Positions 18,307 to 62,023 of a DNA stretch of 64,000 bases are shown here, in pieces (position 1 is the first letter of the stretch; each line of letters begins with the position of its first letter). A model generated the notes under the pieces. It saw nothing but the letters and a program-made list of their open reading frames with translations. It searched no databases and was not told the origin of the DNA. The translations under genes were made by a program, and so were the position numbers. The stretch covers positions 62,001 to 126,000 of the forward strand of contig NZ_PVEP01000001.1 of NCBI RefSeq assembly GCF_002973535.1, read 5' to 3'. The DNA comes from Albidovulum denitrificans. GTDB taxonomy: Bacteria > Pseudomonadota > Alphaproteobacteria > Rhodobacterales > Rhodobacteraceae.

Positions 18307-18313
18307 CGCCTCT

Positions 18314-18403
18314 GGCATTTCGGGTTTGCGCTGATTCAGAACTCGAACTTGTTTCGTTCGAACTCTGATACTTCCTGTCTTAGCGAAAACCCGAAACGCT
18401 TCA
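18314..18403 (-). repeat. Stop-codon palindromic element, copy D
   Basis: Read on the minus strand it is TGAAGCGTTTCGGGTTTTCG ... CAGAGTTCGAAC, a short loop, GTTCGAGTTCTG ... AAACCCGAAATGCC. The first three bases are the stop codon of the 74-residue membrane protein gene. Outer arms AGCGTTTCGGGTTT and AAACCCGAAATGC pair with one G-T wobble. It fills the gap between two convergent genes and could terminate both. Confidence 0.85.
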
Positions 18404-18625
18404 GGTCACGGCCATCCAGATGATGACCCCCCAAAGCGCCAGCGACAGCACGATCGCGGGCAATATCCACCAGCCCGGCGGAAAGGGCCGCTGATCTTCG
18501 AATTCATTCTCGCATTCCGGCGGCGGCAGAGGCTCACGCTCCTGCTTATACCAGCGGTCAAGCGCCTCGCTCCACAGCCCCTCGGCCGCTTGGGCGGCCT
18601 TGCGATCATTCCGGTGATCCACCAT
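18401..18625 (-). CDS. Small single-pass membrane protein, function unknown
   Basis: A 74-residue protein that I do not recognise. The first ~45 residues are polar and charged (VDHRNDRKAAQAAEGLWSEALDRWYKQEREP) with a Pro-rich patch, and residues ~50-72 (WWILPAIVLSLALWGVIIWMAV) form one transmembrane helix at the C-terminus, so the soluble part is probably cytoplasmic. The ATG at 18625 has GGGGAA 8 nt upstream; an in-frame TTG 15 bp earlier is less likely. The gene is convergent with the histidine kinase, and its stop codon is the first triplet of the palindromic element D. Confidence 0.65.
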   Translation of the reverse strand: MVDHRNDRKAAQAAEGLWSEALDRWYKQEREPLPPPECENEFEDQRPFPPGWWILPAIVLSLALWGVIIWMAVT

Positions 18626-18783
18626 CTCAGTTTTCCCCAACTACCCGTCCCCAGCACTAGCGCGGAAGGTTTGAGGGAAGCTTAATGGCCGGACGATCCC
18701 CGGCCCGGCCCGCGCATGCGGCCTTTATTTCACCCCGCGGGCTTGGTACGAGCGCGCATCGCCCCAACAGGCAAGCGAACCGA

Positions 18784-57199: not shown

Positions 57200-58033
57200 A
57201 TGGACGGGAAGCTGCTTCTCATCATTCTCGACGGTGTGCCGTGGCGCAACTGGCGGCGGCTCTTCGGCAATCTCGAAGGCTGGGTCGTCTCGGGCGAGGC
57301 GCAGTTGTGGCGGATGCGGTCGGTGCTGCCCTCCACCTCCGCCTCCTGCTATGCCTCGATCCATACCGGGGTGACGCCGCAGGTTCATGGCTGTACCGGC
57401 AATGCGAACGTCTTCCGCCTGTCGCAGCCCGACATCTTCTCGCAGGTGCGCGCGGCGGGTGGCGTGACCGGCGCGGTGGCGCATTCCTTCTGGTCGGAGT
57501 TCTTCAACCGCCACCCGTTCGATATGGTCCGCGACATCGAATATGACGAACCGGAAAGCGCCACCATCAACCATGGCCGGTTCCACACCATGTCGGGCTA
57601 TGGTCATATCAACCAGATGACACCCTCGGACGTGGACCTTTTCGCCACGCTGACCTCGCTTTGCGGGCGCTTCGGGCTGAATTACGGGATGCTGCATACC
57701 TGCACGCTCGACAGCATGGGGCATCGTTTCTACCACGACTGCGAAGAGATGGATCACGCCTGTTTCGTGATGGACGAGATGCTGGCCCCCTTCATCCCGC
57801 GCTGGCGGAAGATGGGCTATGAGGTGATCGTGACCGCCGATCACGGACAGGATGCGCGCGGCCATCACGGCGGCACGGGCGAGGATCAGCAGGACTTCGC
57901 GCTTTACTATTTCGGTGACGGGCAGGGGCCGGAGAAGGGCGCGGTACTGGACCAGTTGCAGCTTGCGCCGACGATCCTGAAACGCCTTGGCGCGGCGGTG
58001 CCGGGGACGATGAAGGCGAAGCCGTTCCTTTAA
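57200..58033 (+). CDS. Alkaline-phosphatase-superfamily hydrolase (type I phosphodiesterase/nucleotide pyrophosphatase-like)
   Basis: A 277-residue metal-dependent hydrolase without a signal peptide. Metal-ligand and active-site regions of the superfamily can be seen: LLIILDGVP (first Asp), the nucleophile region PSTSASCYASIHTGVTPQVHG, CTLDSMGHRFY (Asp and His), VTADHGQD and HGGTGEDQ. Relatives cleave phosphodiesters, phosphonates or sulfate esters; which of these applies cannot be told. It is the last gene of the operon that begins with the S15 hydrolase, 30 bp after the ATPase. Its stop codon TAA is the first triplet of palindromic element A. Confidence 0.83.
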   Translation: MDGKLLLIILDGVPWRNWRRLFGNLEGWVVSGEAQLWRMRSVLPSTSASCYASIHTGVTPQVHGCTGNANVFRLSQPDIFSQVRAAGGVTGAVAHSFWSEFFNRHPFDMVRDIEYDEPESATINHGRFHTMSGYGHINQMTPSDVDLFATLTSLCGRFGLNYGMLHTCTLDSMGHRFYHDCEEMDHACFVMDEMLAPFIPRWRKMGYEVIVTADHGQDARGHHGGTGEDQQDFALYYFGDGQGPEKGAVLDQLQLAPTILKRLGAAVPGTMKAKPFL

Positions 58034-58125
58034 AGCGTTTCGGGTTTTCGTTGAGAAAGCAAGTATCAGAATTTGAACGTAATAAGTTCGAATTCTGAGT
58101 CAGTGTAAACCCGAAATGCTATAGG
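58031..58125 (+). repeat. Stop-codon palindromic element, copy A
   Basis: TAAAGCGTTTCGGGTTTTCG at the left end, inner arms CAGAATTTGAAC and GTTCGAATTCTG, and AAACCCGAAATGCTATAGG at the right end. The first TAA is the stop codon of the phosphodiesterase-like gene. It lies between convergent genes. The ~140 bp that follow (58126-58268) are GC-rich with no gene. Confidence 0.88.
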
Positions 58126-58268
58126 TCCGGGGCGCCGGGGATTGCCCCCTTTCGCCGGGCCGCGTGTGGCCCGGCATGCGCCCGCCCGCCCCAAGGCGGG
58201 CGCATCCGCGCCCACCCGTGCGGGCGCATGCCTCGGTCTGGAGCGAGCCATGCAGGGAAATGCCGGCC

Positions 58269-58712
58269 TCAGGCCGCCGCTTCGGCCTCGGCCATCGCCT
58301 CGGCCGTGGCCTCAAGCACCAAGAGGATCGAGGCGTGGCGGTTCTTGTAGTCGCGCGCGGGTTCAAGCACGTCATAGCCGGTGAAGGGGGCCTGCGGCGG
58401 GGGGGCGCCCTCTTTCAGCATCGCGCGCAATTCGTCGCGCGCCCGCTCAACCTCGGCCCGCGTGCGGCCGATCATGTGGCCCCCGGCGATGGCGGCCGAG
58501 GCCTGACCCAGCGCGCAGGCCTTCACGTCCTGCCCGAAATCGTCGATCCGCCCCTCCGTCACCACGACATCGACCGTGACGGTCGAACCGCAAAGGGGGG
58601 AGCGTTTGCGGACCGTCGCGGTGGGGTGGTCCAGCCGCCGCGCATGGGGAATATCCGCCGCCAGCGCGAGGATGCGCTGCGAATAAAGCTTGATGAGATC
58701 GGTTTCGCCCAT
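58269..58712 (-). CDS. IscU/NifU-like iron-sulfur scaffold homologue lacking key residues
   Basis: A 147-residue protein of the IscU/SufU fold. The first two scaffold cysteines are present, Cys41 in [13 protein letters not shown] and Cys66 in [13 protein letters not shown]. The third is missing: where IscU has LHCSIL this protein has RHASIL (Ala127 in place of Cys, with His126 kept), and the conserved Asp after the first Cys (CGD) is Ser. It therefore may not assemble clusters like classical IscU and could act in transfer or regulation. I start at ATG 58712 ([14 protein letters not shown]). The gene is divergent from hisI with 64 bp between the starts. Confidence 0.78.
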
Positions 58713-58776
58713 GGCTTTCCCCGCGCGGCCTTTCCCCCTAGATAGGACGCCTGAGCAGGAATGGAAAGGTGCCGCC

Positions 58777-59136
58777 ATGGCCTTCGACCCTTCGACATTG
58801 GTCTATGACAGCCGGGGCCTGATCCCCGCCATCGCGCAGGATGCGGCCTCGGGTCAGGTTCTGATGATGGCCTGGATGAATGCCGAAGCCGTGGCCCGGA
58901 CGCTGGAAACAGGCCGCGTGACCTATTGGTCGCGCTCGCGCGCGGCGTTCTGGGTGAAGGGGGAGTCCTCGGGCCATGTCCAGCGGTTGGTGGAGATGCG
59001 CGTCGATTGCGACCGCGACTGCCTGCTGGTCACGGTCGACCAGACCGGCCCCGCCTGCCACACCAACCGGCGGTCGTGTTTCTACACGGCTGTTCGGGGC
59101 GGCGAGGAGGTCGAGATATTGCGGCCCGAGGCATAA
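58777..59136 (+). CDS. hisI: Phosphoribosyl-AMP cyclohydrolase
   Basis: Third step of histidine synthesis: opens the adenine ring of phosphoribosyl-AMP. The 119-residue product has the family motifs [28 protein letters not shown], the metal site [32 protein letters not shown] and the usual stand-alone length with no HisE fusion. GGAAAGG lies 8 nt before the ATG. It is separate from other his genes here. The stop codon is the first triplet of palindromic element B. Confidence 0.95.
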
Positions 59137-59228
59137 AGCGTTTCGGGTTTTCGTTGGGCAAGCAAGGATCAGAATTCGAACGAAATAAGGTCGAATTCTG
59201 AGTCAGGGTAAACCCGAAATGCTATAGG
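59134..59228 (+). repeat. Stop-codon palindromic element, copy B
   Basis: TAAAGCGTTTCGGGTTTTCG at the left, inner arms CAGAATTCGAAC and GGTCGAATTCTG, and AAACCCGAAATGCTATAGG at the right. The first TAA is the hisI stop. It lies between hisI and the convergent gluQ gene. Confidence 0.88.
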
Positions 59229-59245
59229 CGGCGGGAGCGCTCCGC

Positions 59246-59273
59246 GCGGGAGTATTTTTGCCACAATGAAAGC
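59246..59273 (+). repeat. GGAGTATTT...CACAATGAAAG dispersed motif, copy 4
   Basis: CGGGAGTATTTTTGCC followed by ACAATGAAAGCC. It lies 7 bp before the gluQ stop, next to palindromic element B. Confidence 0.7.
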
Positions 59274-59279
59274 CCGGGG

Positions 59280-60116
59280 TCAGAGAAGACCCACCATGCG
59301 GCGGATGTCGGCGGGGCTGGCGCCCTCGGCGCGGTATTTCGCGATGGCGCGGGCGTCGTCACGTTTGGCGAGGCGCTTGCCGGCCTCGTCCCGGATCAGG
59401 CGGTGGTGGTGGTAGATCGGCGTCGGCAGGCCGAAGAGATGTTGCAGGATCACCTGAATGGGCGTGAAATCAAAAAGGTCCTCGCCCCGGATCACATGGG
59501 TGATGCCCTGATCCGCGTCGTCGAAGGCGGAGGCGAGAAAATAGGCGACGATGCCTTCGCCCTTTCGGCCCAGCACGATGTCGCCGATGGTGGTCCTCGC
59601 CGTGGCGGGATCGACGCGATGCGTCCCTGCATCGGCCGGGCCGGTTTCGGTGAAGGTGAGTGTGGCCGGGTCGAGGAGGGCAAGCGCCCTGCCAAGGTTC
59701 AGGCGCAGCGCGTCGCCGGGCTGGCGGTCGGCCATCGGGCGGGCGCGGCAGGTGCCGGGGTAGACGGCATGCGCGACACCTTCCTGCGGGGCGGCAAGGG
59801 CCGCGCGAATGTCGCCGCGGGTGCAGGCGCAGGGGTAGAGAAGGCCGCGGTCGGCCAGCGTTTCCAGCCGCGCGTTATAGCTCTCGATATGGTCGGACTG
59901 GCGGTGGACGGGGCCGTCCCATGTCAGGCCGAGCCAGGTGAGGTCTTCAACGATCAGCGCCGCCCATTCCGGTTTCGACCGTTCGAGATCGGTATCCTCC
60001 ATCCGCAGCAGGAACGCCCCCCCGGCGGCGCGGGCCATGTCATGGGCGAGGATCGCGGAATAGGCGTGGCCAAGATGCAGCGGGCCGGTGGGCGAGGGCG
60101 CGAAACGGGTGCGCAT
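59280..60116 (-). CDS. gluQ: Glutamyl-Q tRNA(Asp) synthetase
   Basis: A 278-residue truncated glutamyl-tRNA synthetase that attaches glutamate to queuosine in tRNA-Asp. It has the catalytic core only: the HIGH-like motif FAPSPTGPLHLGHAYSAI, the RMEDTDLERSKPEWAALI block, zinc-type cysteines in YPCACTRGDI and YPGTCRARP, and a KMSKS-like KRLAKRDDARAIAKYRAEG near the end. There is no anticodon-binding domain, which separates it from GltX (about 470 residues). Its start overlaps the trmFO stop (TGATG), so the two tRNA-modification genes are co-translated. Confidence 0.92.
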   Translation of the reverse strand: MRTRFAPSPTGPLHLGHAYSAILAHDMARAAGGAFLLRMEDTDLERSKPEWAALIVEDLTWLGLTWDGPVHRQSDHIESYNARLETLADRGLLYPCACTRGDIRAALAAPQEGVAHAVYPGTCRARPMADRQPGDALRLNLGRALALLDPATLTFTETGPADAGTHRVDPATARTTIGDIVLGRKGEGIVAYFLASAFDDADQGITHVIRGEDLFDFTPIQVILQHLFGLPTPIYHHHRLIRDEAGKRLAKRDDARAIAKYRAEGASPADIRRMVGLL

Positions 60117-61456
60117 CAGCTTTGCGTCGAGAGCCAGCCGGTGAAGGCGTCCTTGGCGCGGTCGGTATAGGCCTTGTAACGGTCCTTGCGGCCCTTGCGC
60201 CCGCCCTTGGCGTCGATGGGCGGGAAGAGGCCGAAATTCACGTTCATCGGCTGGAAGGTTTTCGCCTCTGCCCCGCCGGTGATGTGGGTGACAAGCGCGC
60301 CCATCGCGGTATCGGGCGGCGGCGGGGGCAGGTCGCGGCCAAGGATCGCCTGCGCGGCCATGCGGCCCGCCAGAAGCCCCATCGCGGCGCTTTCGACATA
60401 GCCCTCAACCCCGGTGATCTGGCCCGCGAAGCGGATATGGGGACGGGTGCGCAGCCGCATCCGGTCGTCAAGCAGGGTCGGCGCGTTGATGAAGGTGTTG
60501 CGGTGGATGCCGCCGAGGCGGGCGAAGCCTGCCTTTTCCAGACCGGGGATCAGGCGGAAGACATCGGTCTGGGCGCCGTATTTCATCTTGGTCTGGAAGC
60601 CGACGATGTTGAAGAGCGTGCCAAGCTTGTTGTCGCGGCGCAGCTGGACGACGGCATAGGGTTTCACGTCGGGACGGTGCGCGTTGGTCAGCCCCACGGG
60701 CTTCATCGGGCCGAAGCGCAGCGTGTCGCGGCCGCGCTCGGCCATCACCTCGATCGGCAGGCAGCCGTCGAAGTATTTCGCCGTCTCGCCGTCGCGGAAT
60801 TCAGTCTTGTCGGCGGCGAGAAGCGCGTCGATGAAGGCCTCATACTGCGCCTTGTCCATCGGGCAGTTGAGATAGGCGGTGCGTTCCTCTTCCGTCTCGC
60901 CCTTGTCATAGCGCGACTGCATCCAGGCGACGGTCATATCCACGCTTTCGGCATAGACGATGGGCGCGATGGCGTCGAAGAAGGCGAGGGCCTCGGCCCC
61001 GGTTTCGGCCCGGATCGCCTCGGCCAGCGTGCCGGAGGTGAGGGGGCCGGTGGCGACGATCCAGTGACCACGCTCGGGCAGGGCGGTGATCTCGCCCGTT
61101 TCCACCTCGATCAGCGGATGGGCGCAGAGGTGGCGGGTGACGGCCTCGGAAAACGGATCGCGGTCGACGGCCAGCGCGCCACCGGCGGGCAGGCGGTGGC
61201 GGTCGGCCATGTCCATGACCAGACCGTCGGCCGCGCGCATTTCCCAGTGCAGCAGCCCCACGGCGTTCTGTTCGTCATCGTCCGAACGGAAGGAGTTCGA
61301 ACACACCATCTCCGCCAGGTTGCCGGTGCGGTGGGCGAAGGTGGCGACCTTTGGCCGCATCTCGTGAATCGTCACGGGGACGCCAAGCTGGGCCGCCTGC
61401 CAGGCCGCCTCGGACCCGGCCATGCCGCCGCCGATGATGTGAAGTCGCGTGTCCAT
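60116..61456 (-). CDS. trmFO: Methylenetetrahydrofolate--tRNA-(uracil-5-)-methyltransferase
   Basis: Folate- and FAD-dependent enzyme that makes ribothymidine at position 54 of tRNAs. The 446-residue product begins with the FAD-binding [31 protein letters not shown] and shows the family strings [35 protein letters not shown] with conserved Cys, [29 protein letters not shown] and [25 protein letters not shown] start at ATG 61456 ([11 protein letters not shown]), ignoring 16 residues of open frame upstream. It is co-transcribed with gluQ. Confidence 0.96.
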
Positions 61457-61526
61457 GGGCGCGGGTTTAGGCGGTTTGGCGGGAAAGAGGAAGGGGCGGC
61501 GCATGGCCGCCCCGGTGTCGCTGGCA

Positions 61527-61621
61527 CCTATAGCATTTCGGGTTTGTACTGAATCAGAATTCGAACCTGTTTCGTTCGAATTCTGATACTTACTTTCTCA
61601 ACGCAAACCCGAAACGCTTTA
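61527..61621 (-). repeat. Stop-codon palindromic element, copy C
   Basis: On the minus strand it is TAAAGCGTTTCGGGTTTGCG ... CAGAATTCGAAC, loop, GTTCGAATTCTG ... AAACCCGAAATGCTATAGG. The inner stem is a perfect 12 bp. The first TAA is the doxX stop codon. Unlike the other copies it sits between two genes on the same strand, doxX and trmFO. Confidence 0.88.
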
Positions 61622-62023
61622 GCCGAAGGCGGGCGCCTTGCGGGTGAAAAGCGCATCGGCGGACCAGCCCCCGGCGCCATGGGCGGCGAGCAGCAGGAAG
61701 CCCCCGGCAAGGCCGAGGTTCTTCATGAAGGCGGTCATCTGCATCTGGTCGGCGGGGACGAAATGGAAAAGGAGCGCGGAGAGGAGGGAGAACCCCGCAA
61801 GCGCCAGCGCGGCCGGGCGGGTGAAGGCGCCGAGAAGGATCGCGAGCCCGCCGAGGAGTTCAAGCGCGATGGTGGGCCAGGCGAAGATGGCAGGCACGCC
61901 GCCCGAGGTCATGTAGGCGGTAAAGCCCGCCACGTCCTGAAGCTTGCCATAGCCCGCGACGATGAAAAGGATGCTGAGAAAGAGGCGCGCCAGAAGGGTG
62001 GCGATGGGGGGGAGGTGGGTCAT
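61619..62023 (-). CDS. DoxX family membrane protein
   Basis: A 134-residue integral membrane protein with four predicted helices: LLARLFLSILFIVAGYGKL, FAWPTIALELLGGLAILLG, ALALAGFSLLSALLFHF and LGLAGGFLLLAAHGAG. The opening ARLFLSILFIVAGYGKLQDVAGFTAYMTSGGVP is characteristic of DoxX/YphA proteins, whose function is mostly unknown; some subunits associate with quinone-linked oxidoreductases. I start at ATG 62023 (MTHLPPIATLLARLF), with GGAGATCCCG before it. The open frame further upstream is in intergenic sequence. Confidence 0.87.
   Translation of the reverse strand: MTHLPPIATLLARLFLSILFIVAGYGKLQDVAGFTAYMTSGGVPAIFAWPTIALELLGGLAILLGAFTRPAALALAGFSLLSALLFHFVPADQMQMTAFMKNLGLAGGFLLLAAHGAGGWSADALFTRKAPAFG

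Follow-up and report, generated by a model that had tools for sequence, protein, structure and literature searches.

Why should one and the same palindrome of about 96 bp begin, always in the same orientation, at the very stop codon of genes that have nothing in common? The question is raised by a window of 64,000 nucleotides from Albidovulum denitrificans (contig NZ_PVEP01000001.1, positions 62,001 to 126,000 of the forward strand; window coordinates are used below), in which four copies of such an element are found. We suggest, with a probability of roughly 0.8, that the element is a miniature inverted-repeat transposable element (MITE) of the TA-duplicating IS630/Tc1-mariner type, moved in trans. 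What can be read directly from the compared sequences is the target, a number of clean empty sites, the rebuilt stop codon and the lineage-specific subfamilies. On this reading the element is a MITE family not described before, though of a familiar type, with an end that rebuilds stop codons. The case has a general side: a transposon whose target is very short can mimic a regulatory element fixed to stop codons, and searches for RNA motifs could mistake it for a motif of the 3' untranslated region (3' UTR).

The four copies lie where a preliminary description of the window had placed them and align end to end, with a mean column identity of 92% over 96 columns (Table 1). The unit of 96 bp has terminal inverted arms (AAGCGTTTCGGGTTT and AAACCCGAAAYGCT) and is short, as is usual for a MITE, and each copy folds into a single long hairpin, with energies from -38.2 to -44.8 kcal/mol and z scores from -6.8 to -8.6 relative to shuffled sequences. 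As had been described, the first triplet is the stop codon of the preceding gene in all four copies (TAA in A, B and C, TGA in D), and three of them (A, B and D) are placed between convergent genes. Copy A ends an open reading frame (ORF) at 57200-58033 and its downstream gene is convergent, copy B ends a hisI-like gene, and copy C a doxX-like gene that is followed by a codirectional one. Copy D ends a small ORF at 18401-18640 (79 amino acids from a TTG start); here the covariance match extends to 18308, and the convergent gene ends 1 nt past this position. The TATAGG that was described as following the element is better read as two parts: the second TA, and what is left of the target, in most cases the former stop codon.

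Table 1. Copies of the element in the window, and a neighbouring hairpin
Feature	Position	Strand	Details
Copy A	58031..58126	+	TA 58031-58032, core 58033-58121, second TA 58122-58123, then G
Copy B	59134..59229	+	TA 59134-59135, core 59136-59224, TA 59225-59226, then G
Copy C	61526..61621	-	TA 61621-61620, core 61619-61531, TA 61530-61529
Copy D	18313..18403	-	First triplet TGA; ends TG and GA where the others have TA
Terminator-like hairpin with T run	59231..59260	+	Directly after copy B; separate from the element

As the preliminary description had proposed, the four copies were used to build a covariance model, and the genome and its relatives were searched with it. At least 109 distinct places were found in this genome (G000; 4,107,985 bases in 23 contigs), a lower bound; where one place was matched on both strands, the weaker match was removed by hand; all counts out of 109 rest on these listed copies, all of which were retrieved with their flanks. 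The arm AAGCGTTTCGGGTTT alone (15 bases, at most one mismatch) occurs 107 times, 100 of these places being listed, and its reversed control does not occur. The copies are nearly uniform in length: 99 have exactly 96 bases and differ on average by 6.9% from their consensus. Outside the 109 there are a lone arm match (C3:84261) and a copy shortened to about 50 bp by an internal deletion, with both arms retained, near C1 250416 (L010, 1468-1520).

The register with stop codons holds well beyond the window. An in-frame stop coincides with the first triplet in 75 of the 109 copies when genes are called by dynamic programming and in 77 by a simpler codon-usage scan, so that the fixed place and orientation described for the window holds for most copies in this genome (genes were called with a codon-usage script of our own, for which this genome was the training set, and not with a standard annotator). 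The triplet is TAA in 63 of the 75, TGA in 7 and TAG in 5. The remaining 34 comprise 26 copies at 1 to 238 nt beyond the stop of a sense gene and 8 in which the gene in front points away. Among the relatives, 22 of 47 copies in G013 and 9 of 31 in G020 start at an in-frame stop. These are the studied copies out of 49 and 59 listed, respectively; 30 of the 108 listed copies were thus left out, opposite-strand duplicate matches and five partial G020 matches were dropped besides, and contexts are less certain in G020, which is in 310 contigs with several copies near contig ends.

TA is found on both sides of the element in most copies, and the bases around it are far from random. A pyrimidine (Y) precedes the first TA in 98 of the 109 copies (C 62, T 36, A 8, G 3), and a purine (R) follows the second in 107 (G 82, A 25, T 1, C 1). 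The 32 copies that the codon-usage scan placed off stop codons have these flanks too (Y 30, R 30), as do copies of the relatives (Y 42/47 and R 46/47 in G013, Y 27/31 and R 29/31 in G020). Most copies fit the reading Y-TA-[AAGCG...GCTA]-TA-R, which suggests a duplication of TA. Stop codons themselves are sorted by the same rule: Y stands before TA at 68 of 77 occupied stops and at only 53 of 146 unoccupied TA stops in 657 kb (p 1e-14). In these 657 kb, 118 of 6254 coding TAs are YTAR, as are 53 of 146 TAs at stops and about 240 intergenic sites. The flanks of the element agree with the CTAG/YTAR preference reported for IS630, which, to go by the title of a study by Tenzen and Ohtsubo from 1991, is said to prefer the TA in CTAG. 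A duplicated TA is also the mark of IS630 and Tc1-mariner transposons (PMC2170065; here and below, papers are cited from part of their text). The present element shares this duplication with them, but it has no coding capacity, and no IS630 transposase with matching ends was detected.

A second line of evidence comes from sites that are empty in other species. The flanks of 185 copies were joined over a single TA and searched in the collected sequence of the genome and its relatives, the comparison being one between species and not between strains. Eighteen queries matched across the junction; ten were usable, having no more than 5 gap letters close to the junction, and the other eight, which had more, were not counted. 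A single TA stands at the junction in six of the ten, and in three of them the empty site is a gap-free CTAG: C1:284516 and C1:333403 (both intergenic, empty in G008) and G020:C10:7939 (empty in G014). Two G013 copies have empty sites CTAG and GTAG with small gaps. The sixth is the hisI stop, where G013 is occupied by a diverged element of its own and the empty site in G009 is TAG; copy B lies at this stop too, and G008 also has TAG there without the element.

The copies also multiplied separately in different lineages. G000, G013 and G020 each have their own subfamily, with the same arms and with consensuses that are 11-14% apart. When 101 upstream genes were compared with the 78 copies of the relatives, a G013 copy was found at the stop of hisI and of one other clear orthologue (82% identity), perhaps also of a third, distant homologue (49%), while hisI and one further upstream gene lie near G020 copies. 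The Y-TA-R flanks, the single TA at six of the ten usable empty sites and the subfamilies at mostly different genes support a MITE inserting at TA, the best of the three roles that the preliminary description had proposed. A variant of 118 bases with a different inner part occurs at G013:C22:346090-346207 (L163).

The distribution of the element is patchy. An exact pattern matched 18 stretches of a named collection, which are titled Defluviimonas or Rhodobacteraceae/Alphaproteobacteria metagenome-assembled genomes. With a strict pattern, which was run on 295 genomes of the family, nearly all (two excepted) from other genera, only G000 and one other congener matched, and a looser covariance model matched 13 of 41 genomes: G000, 10 of 21 other congeners and two members of other genera. 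The number of matches was 1 to 97 per other positive genome and 0 to 102 over the whole range, both strands counted. No match was found in plasmid and phage DNA, nor with the strict pattern in viral contigs, collections from which the records nearest to this genome may be missing. A literature search yielded no description in which we recognised the element; most subscription papers were beyond its reach, so that absence from print is not implied.

How could such an element come to sit on stop codons? We propose that a palindrome without a protein was mobilised in trans by a TA-duplicating transposase that is now lost or undetected, and that its target was Y-TA-R, CTAG being the best one. In this GC-rich genome such targets are rare inside genes and are concentrated at stop codons and at intergenic promoter-like spots. 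On insertion a TAG or TAA stop is split into TA-A...TA-TAR, where TA is duplicated and the A is the element's own first base; translation now ends at the new TAA, the protein stays the same, and the former stop is still present at the far end. Since the duplicated TA and the first base A together make TAA, insertion into a stop codon is silent. Selection would have weeded out copies that disrupted a gene, extended a protein or came between promoter and gene, which would leave mostly sense copies at tight convergent 3' ends.

The ends of the affected proteins can be inspected for traces of such selection. At single stops, 57 copies are sense and 3 antisense in G000, an excess that can be explained by selection on protein ends. 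The stop triplet is lost in none of the 75 in-register copies and in 10 of the 34 others (p 3e-6), which is partly so by the definition of in-register. Both convergent genes enter the element in register, sharing the target TA, in 18 copies, and three more copies are entered in register from the far side only. From this side the element reads TAT and adds about seven codons to the second gene. Column 91 has a T or C, which restores the stop of the second gene, in 11 of these 21 copies as opposed to 5 of the 88 others (p 2e-6). This enrichment is good evidence that selection acts on protein ends.

Several observations weigh against the transposon reading and need to be set beside it. Firstly, four of the ten usable empty sites have no TA: TGA stands at C2:365059 and at copy D, TCAG at G020:C10:8432, and one alignment is poor. 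The orthologous site of copy D, empty in G008, reads CCTGAGGC; this copy may have inserted elsewhere than at TA, or it may be a decayed insertion. Secondly, when proteins were used as guides to locate junctions in 400 kb of G008, 12 could be placed. TAG stands at six of them: two, both intergenic, have clearly matching flanks on either side, in two the downstream match is weak, and in two there is none downstream. The remaining six end in TGA, some of them a few codons off. Insertion without duplication by an element carrying TA at one end would look identical. Thirdly, the sense bias at single stops is weaker in the relatives (16:3 in G013, 8:5 in G020), and the gene pairs that serve below as background lie near copies and are not a random sample. 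Finally, the mobilising enzyme was not found: the own genome has no DDE_3 match and only matches below the cut-off to the IS630 model, which in six genomes gave one match above the cut-off, in G001, without the element's ends. These searches brought up no autonomous relative with the same ends. An IS630-type mobiliser is nevertheless probable, and the partner may be lost or unassembled.

A partner at contig edges was considered and rejected, as the two matches there share one sequence that was read by eye as an IS3-type OrfA. The ends of contigs C16 and C14 (L217, L223) share the start of this IS3-type transposase OrfA-like sequence, which suggests that a repeated insertion sequence (IS) breaks the assembly at these ends. 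Many extragenic, palindromic copies would also be expected of palindromes of the REP/REPIN type, for which the mobiliser is a Y1 (RAYT) transposase. None of four genomes, the own one included, has a Y1_Tnp match, however, and the control search was positive in Escherichia coli and Caulobacter; with TA flanking both ends in addition, we hold this explanation to be very improbable.

The copies lie between convergent genes in 71 of 109 cases, as compared with 55 of 508 background gene pairs. Scaling these 508 element-free pairs to the genome by a factor of 8.9 gives estimates of occupancy: 63/214 (29%) of target stops and 8/35 (23%) of non-stop targets in convergent gaps, 15/300 (5%) and 18/685 in codirectional gaps, and 5/1001 (0.5%) in divergent gaps. 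In counted sites, Y-TA-R stops are occupied at a convergent to codirectional ratio of 63:15 and unoccupied at 17:32 (p 2e-7). Gene ends at most 10 nt apart before insertion are found in 46 of the 71 convergent copies and in 23 of the 55 background pairs (p 0.012). Together with the very stable hairpin, these figures could speak for a co-opted two-way insulator or 3'-end protector, where the hairpin in either transcript would stop readthrough or exonucleases and copies would be positively selected. We consider this unlikely, as no T run follows the stem on the sense strand in any of the 109 copies, G-U pairs are not in excess on this strand, and few sites are common to different species. Moreover, RUP, BOX, SPRITE and IS elements are likewise enriched between convergent genes, which has been read as tolerance (Croucher et al., PMC3049150).

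A preference for the stop codon itself was also considered and rejected, since stop and non-stop targets in convergent gaps are filled alike (occupied 63:8, unoccupied 17:3, p 0.70, with only 3 unoccupied non-stop sites). As convergent and codirectional stops do differ, the target merely sits at the stop, and copies survive at convergent 3' ends. It is unlikely that the MITE has become a specialist for stop codons, whose first base rebuilds the stop and which, with YTAR at stops, fills an estimated 29% of convergent target stops, serving now as a two-way transcription barrier and a GANTC methylation mark. The 63 occupied and about 150 empty (an estimate) convergent target stops of one genome are nevertheless a natural experiment on whether such copies are tolerated repeats or barriers.

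The preliminary description had noted G-T wobbles in the inner stem and taken them as a sign that the folded RNA matters. We do not find this in the larger sample, which for the stem counts comprises the copies of exactly 96 bases (99/109 in G000, 32/47 in G013, 28/31 in G020). Among stem changes, G-U is no more common than A-C in G000 (53:88), and the ratios are 45:49 and 25:24 in the two relatives. Double changes that preserve pairing number 11, 15 and 0 in the three genomes against shuffled means of 5.1, 7.1 and 1.1, and kinship of the copies can produce such excesses. The consensus has three G-U pairs in G000, none in G013 and two different ones in G020. With no G-U excess over A-C and few pairing-preserving double changes, selection on the folded RNA was rejected.

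The same data bear on a vertically inherited RNA element of the host's 3' UTR, tied to the stop for translation-coupled regulation. Constant place and orientation at stops, the stable fold and the modest excess of double changes in two of three genomes would suit it, yet such an element should hardly be patchy in the genus, at mostly different host genes in different species, present in 5' regions and divergent gaps, free of a G-U bias and confronted with empty sites. An Rfam covariance scan of the window at gathering thresholds gave two tRNAs and no match to the element, and overall we see very little chance for this explanation.

Nor is an intrinsic terminator supported in the gene-sense direction, a two-way terminator being among the roles that had been proposed: TTTT follows the stem within 17 nt in none of the 109 copies in this direction, and in 3 on the opposite strand. 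A Rho-type terminator, a protector of RNA ends or a hairpin roadblock is possible. A pattern scan flagged the inner stem of copy C as terminator-like on the plus strand, where the element is antisense, and the region 57900-61800 has 5 terminator-like sites, with 3.0 (standard deviation 1.7) in shuffles.

The far end of the element may have an activity of its own. Non-stop copies between codirectional genes in G000 face the next gene in 16 cases and face away in 2 (p 0.001), a bias that is absent in the two relatives (7:6 and 6:4). Eleven of the 16 end 26-45 nt before the start codon, at the distance expected of a -10 box (e.g. C1:284516-284611). The consensus far end is TGCTATAR in G000 and CGCTATAR in the two relatives; the former may be an extended -10 promoter. 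No sigma-70-like promoter was found in 57900-61800. We point to an outward promoter at the 3' end as a lead that may be worth following, the orientation bias being seen in G000 alone.

The element can be compared with several known families. The closest analogues are RUP (the repeat unit of pneumococcus) and the Correia elements, to which it is likened by description and not by sequence. RUP has about 107 bp and about 110 copies, inverted ends, a TA target and a tight fold, and is linked to IS630-Spn1 (PMC2229807, PMC3049150); it is over-represented between convergent genes, which is read as tolerance of a parasite (PMC3049150). Size, copy number, TA target and the convergent excess make RUP the nearest in kind. 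Unlike RUP, the present element lives in a GC-rich alphaproteobacterial host, most of its copies lie in a stop codon that they regenerate, and no IS partner was found. The ends of the Correia elements (CREE, NEMIS) of Neisseria also read TATAG, and roles of IHF and RNase III have been described for CREE. Correia elements are mostly 104-108 or 153-157 bp long, have inverted repeats and often a TA target, form hairpins in mRNA and can carry promoters at their ends; in one strain, 76 CREE are found 5' of genes (PMC2649163). Size, TA target and inverted ends are alike, and promoter-bearing ends may be; those 76 CREE are 5' of genes, whereas our element is mostly 3'.

A different kind of likeness is given by GANTC. 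This site, of the CcrM type, occupies columns 67-71, at the junction of two helices, in 83 of the 109 copies, and all copies together contain 97 GANTC against 34.8 expected from letter shuffling; over the whole window its density is just 0.78 per kb. The N column is the variable one (T in 57 and G in 40 of 99). The Caulobacter CcrM-associated intergenic repeats (CIR) are likewise alphaproteobacterial and intergenic, about 110 bp long, with a conserved GANTC at the terminal loop of a fold in which two arms are joined by a linker (PMC2229807). Size and GANTC are in common. In contrast to the two-arm fold of CIR, the four window copies form a single long hairpin, with GANTC at an inner helix junction.

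A last observation concerns the GC-rich hairpin that follows copy B (Table 1). It carries TATTTTTG and resembles an intrinsic terminator, and parts of it match 11 places in the relative G004.

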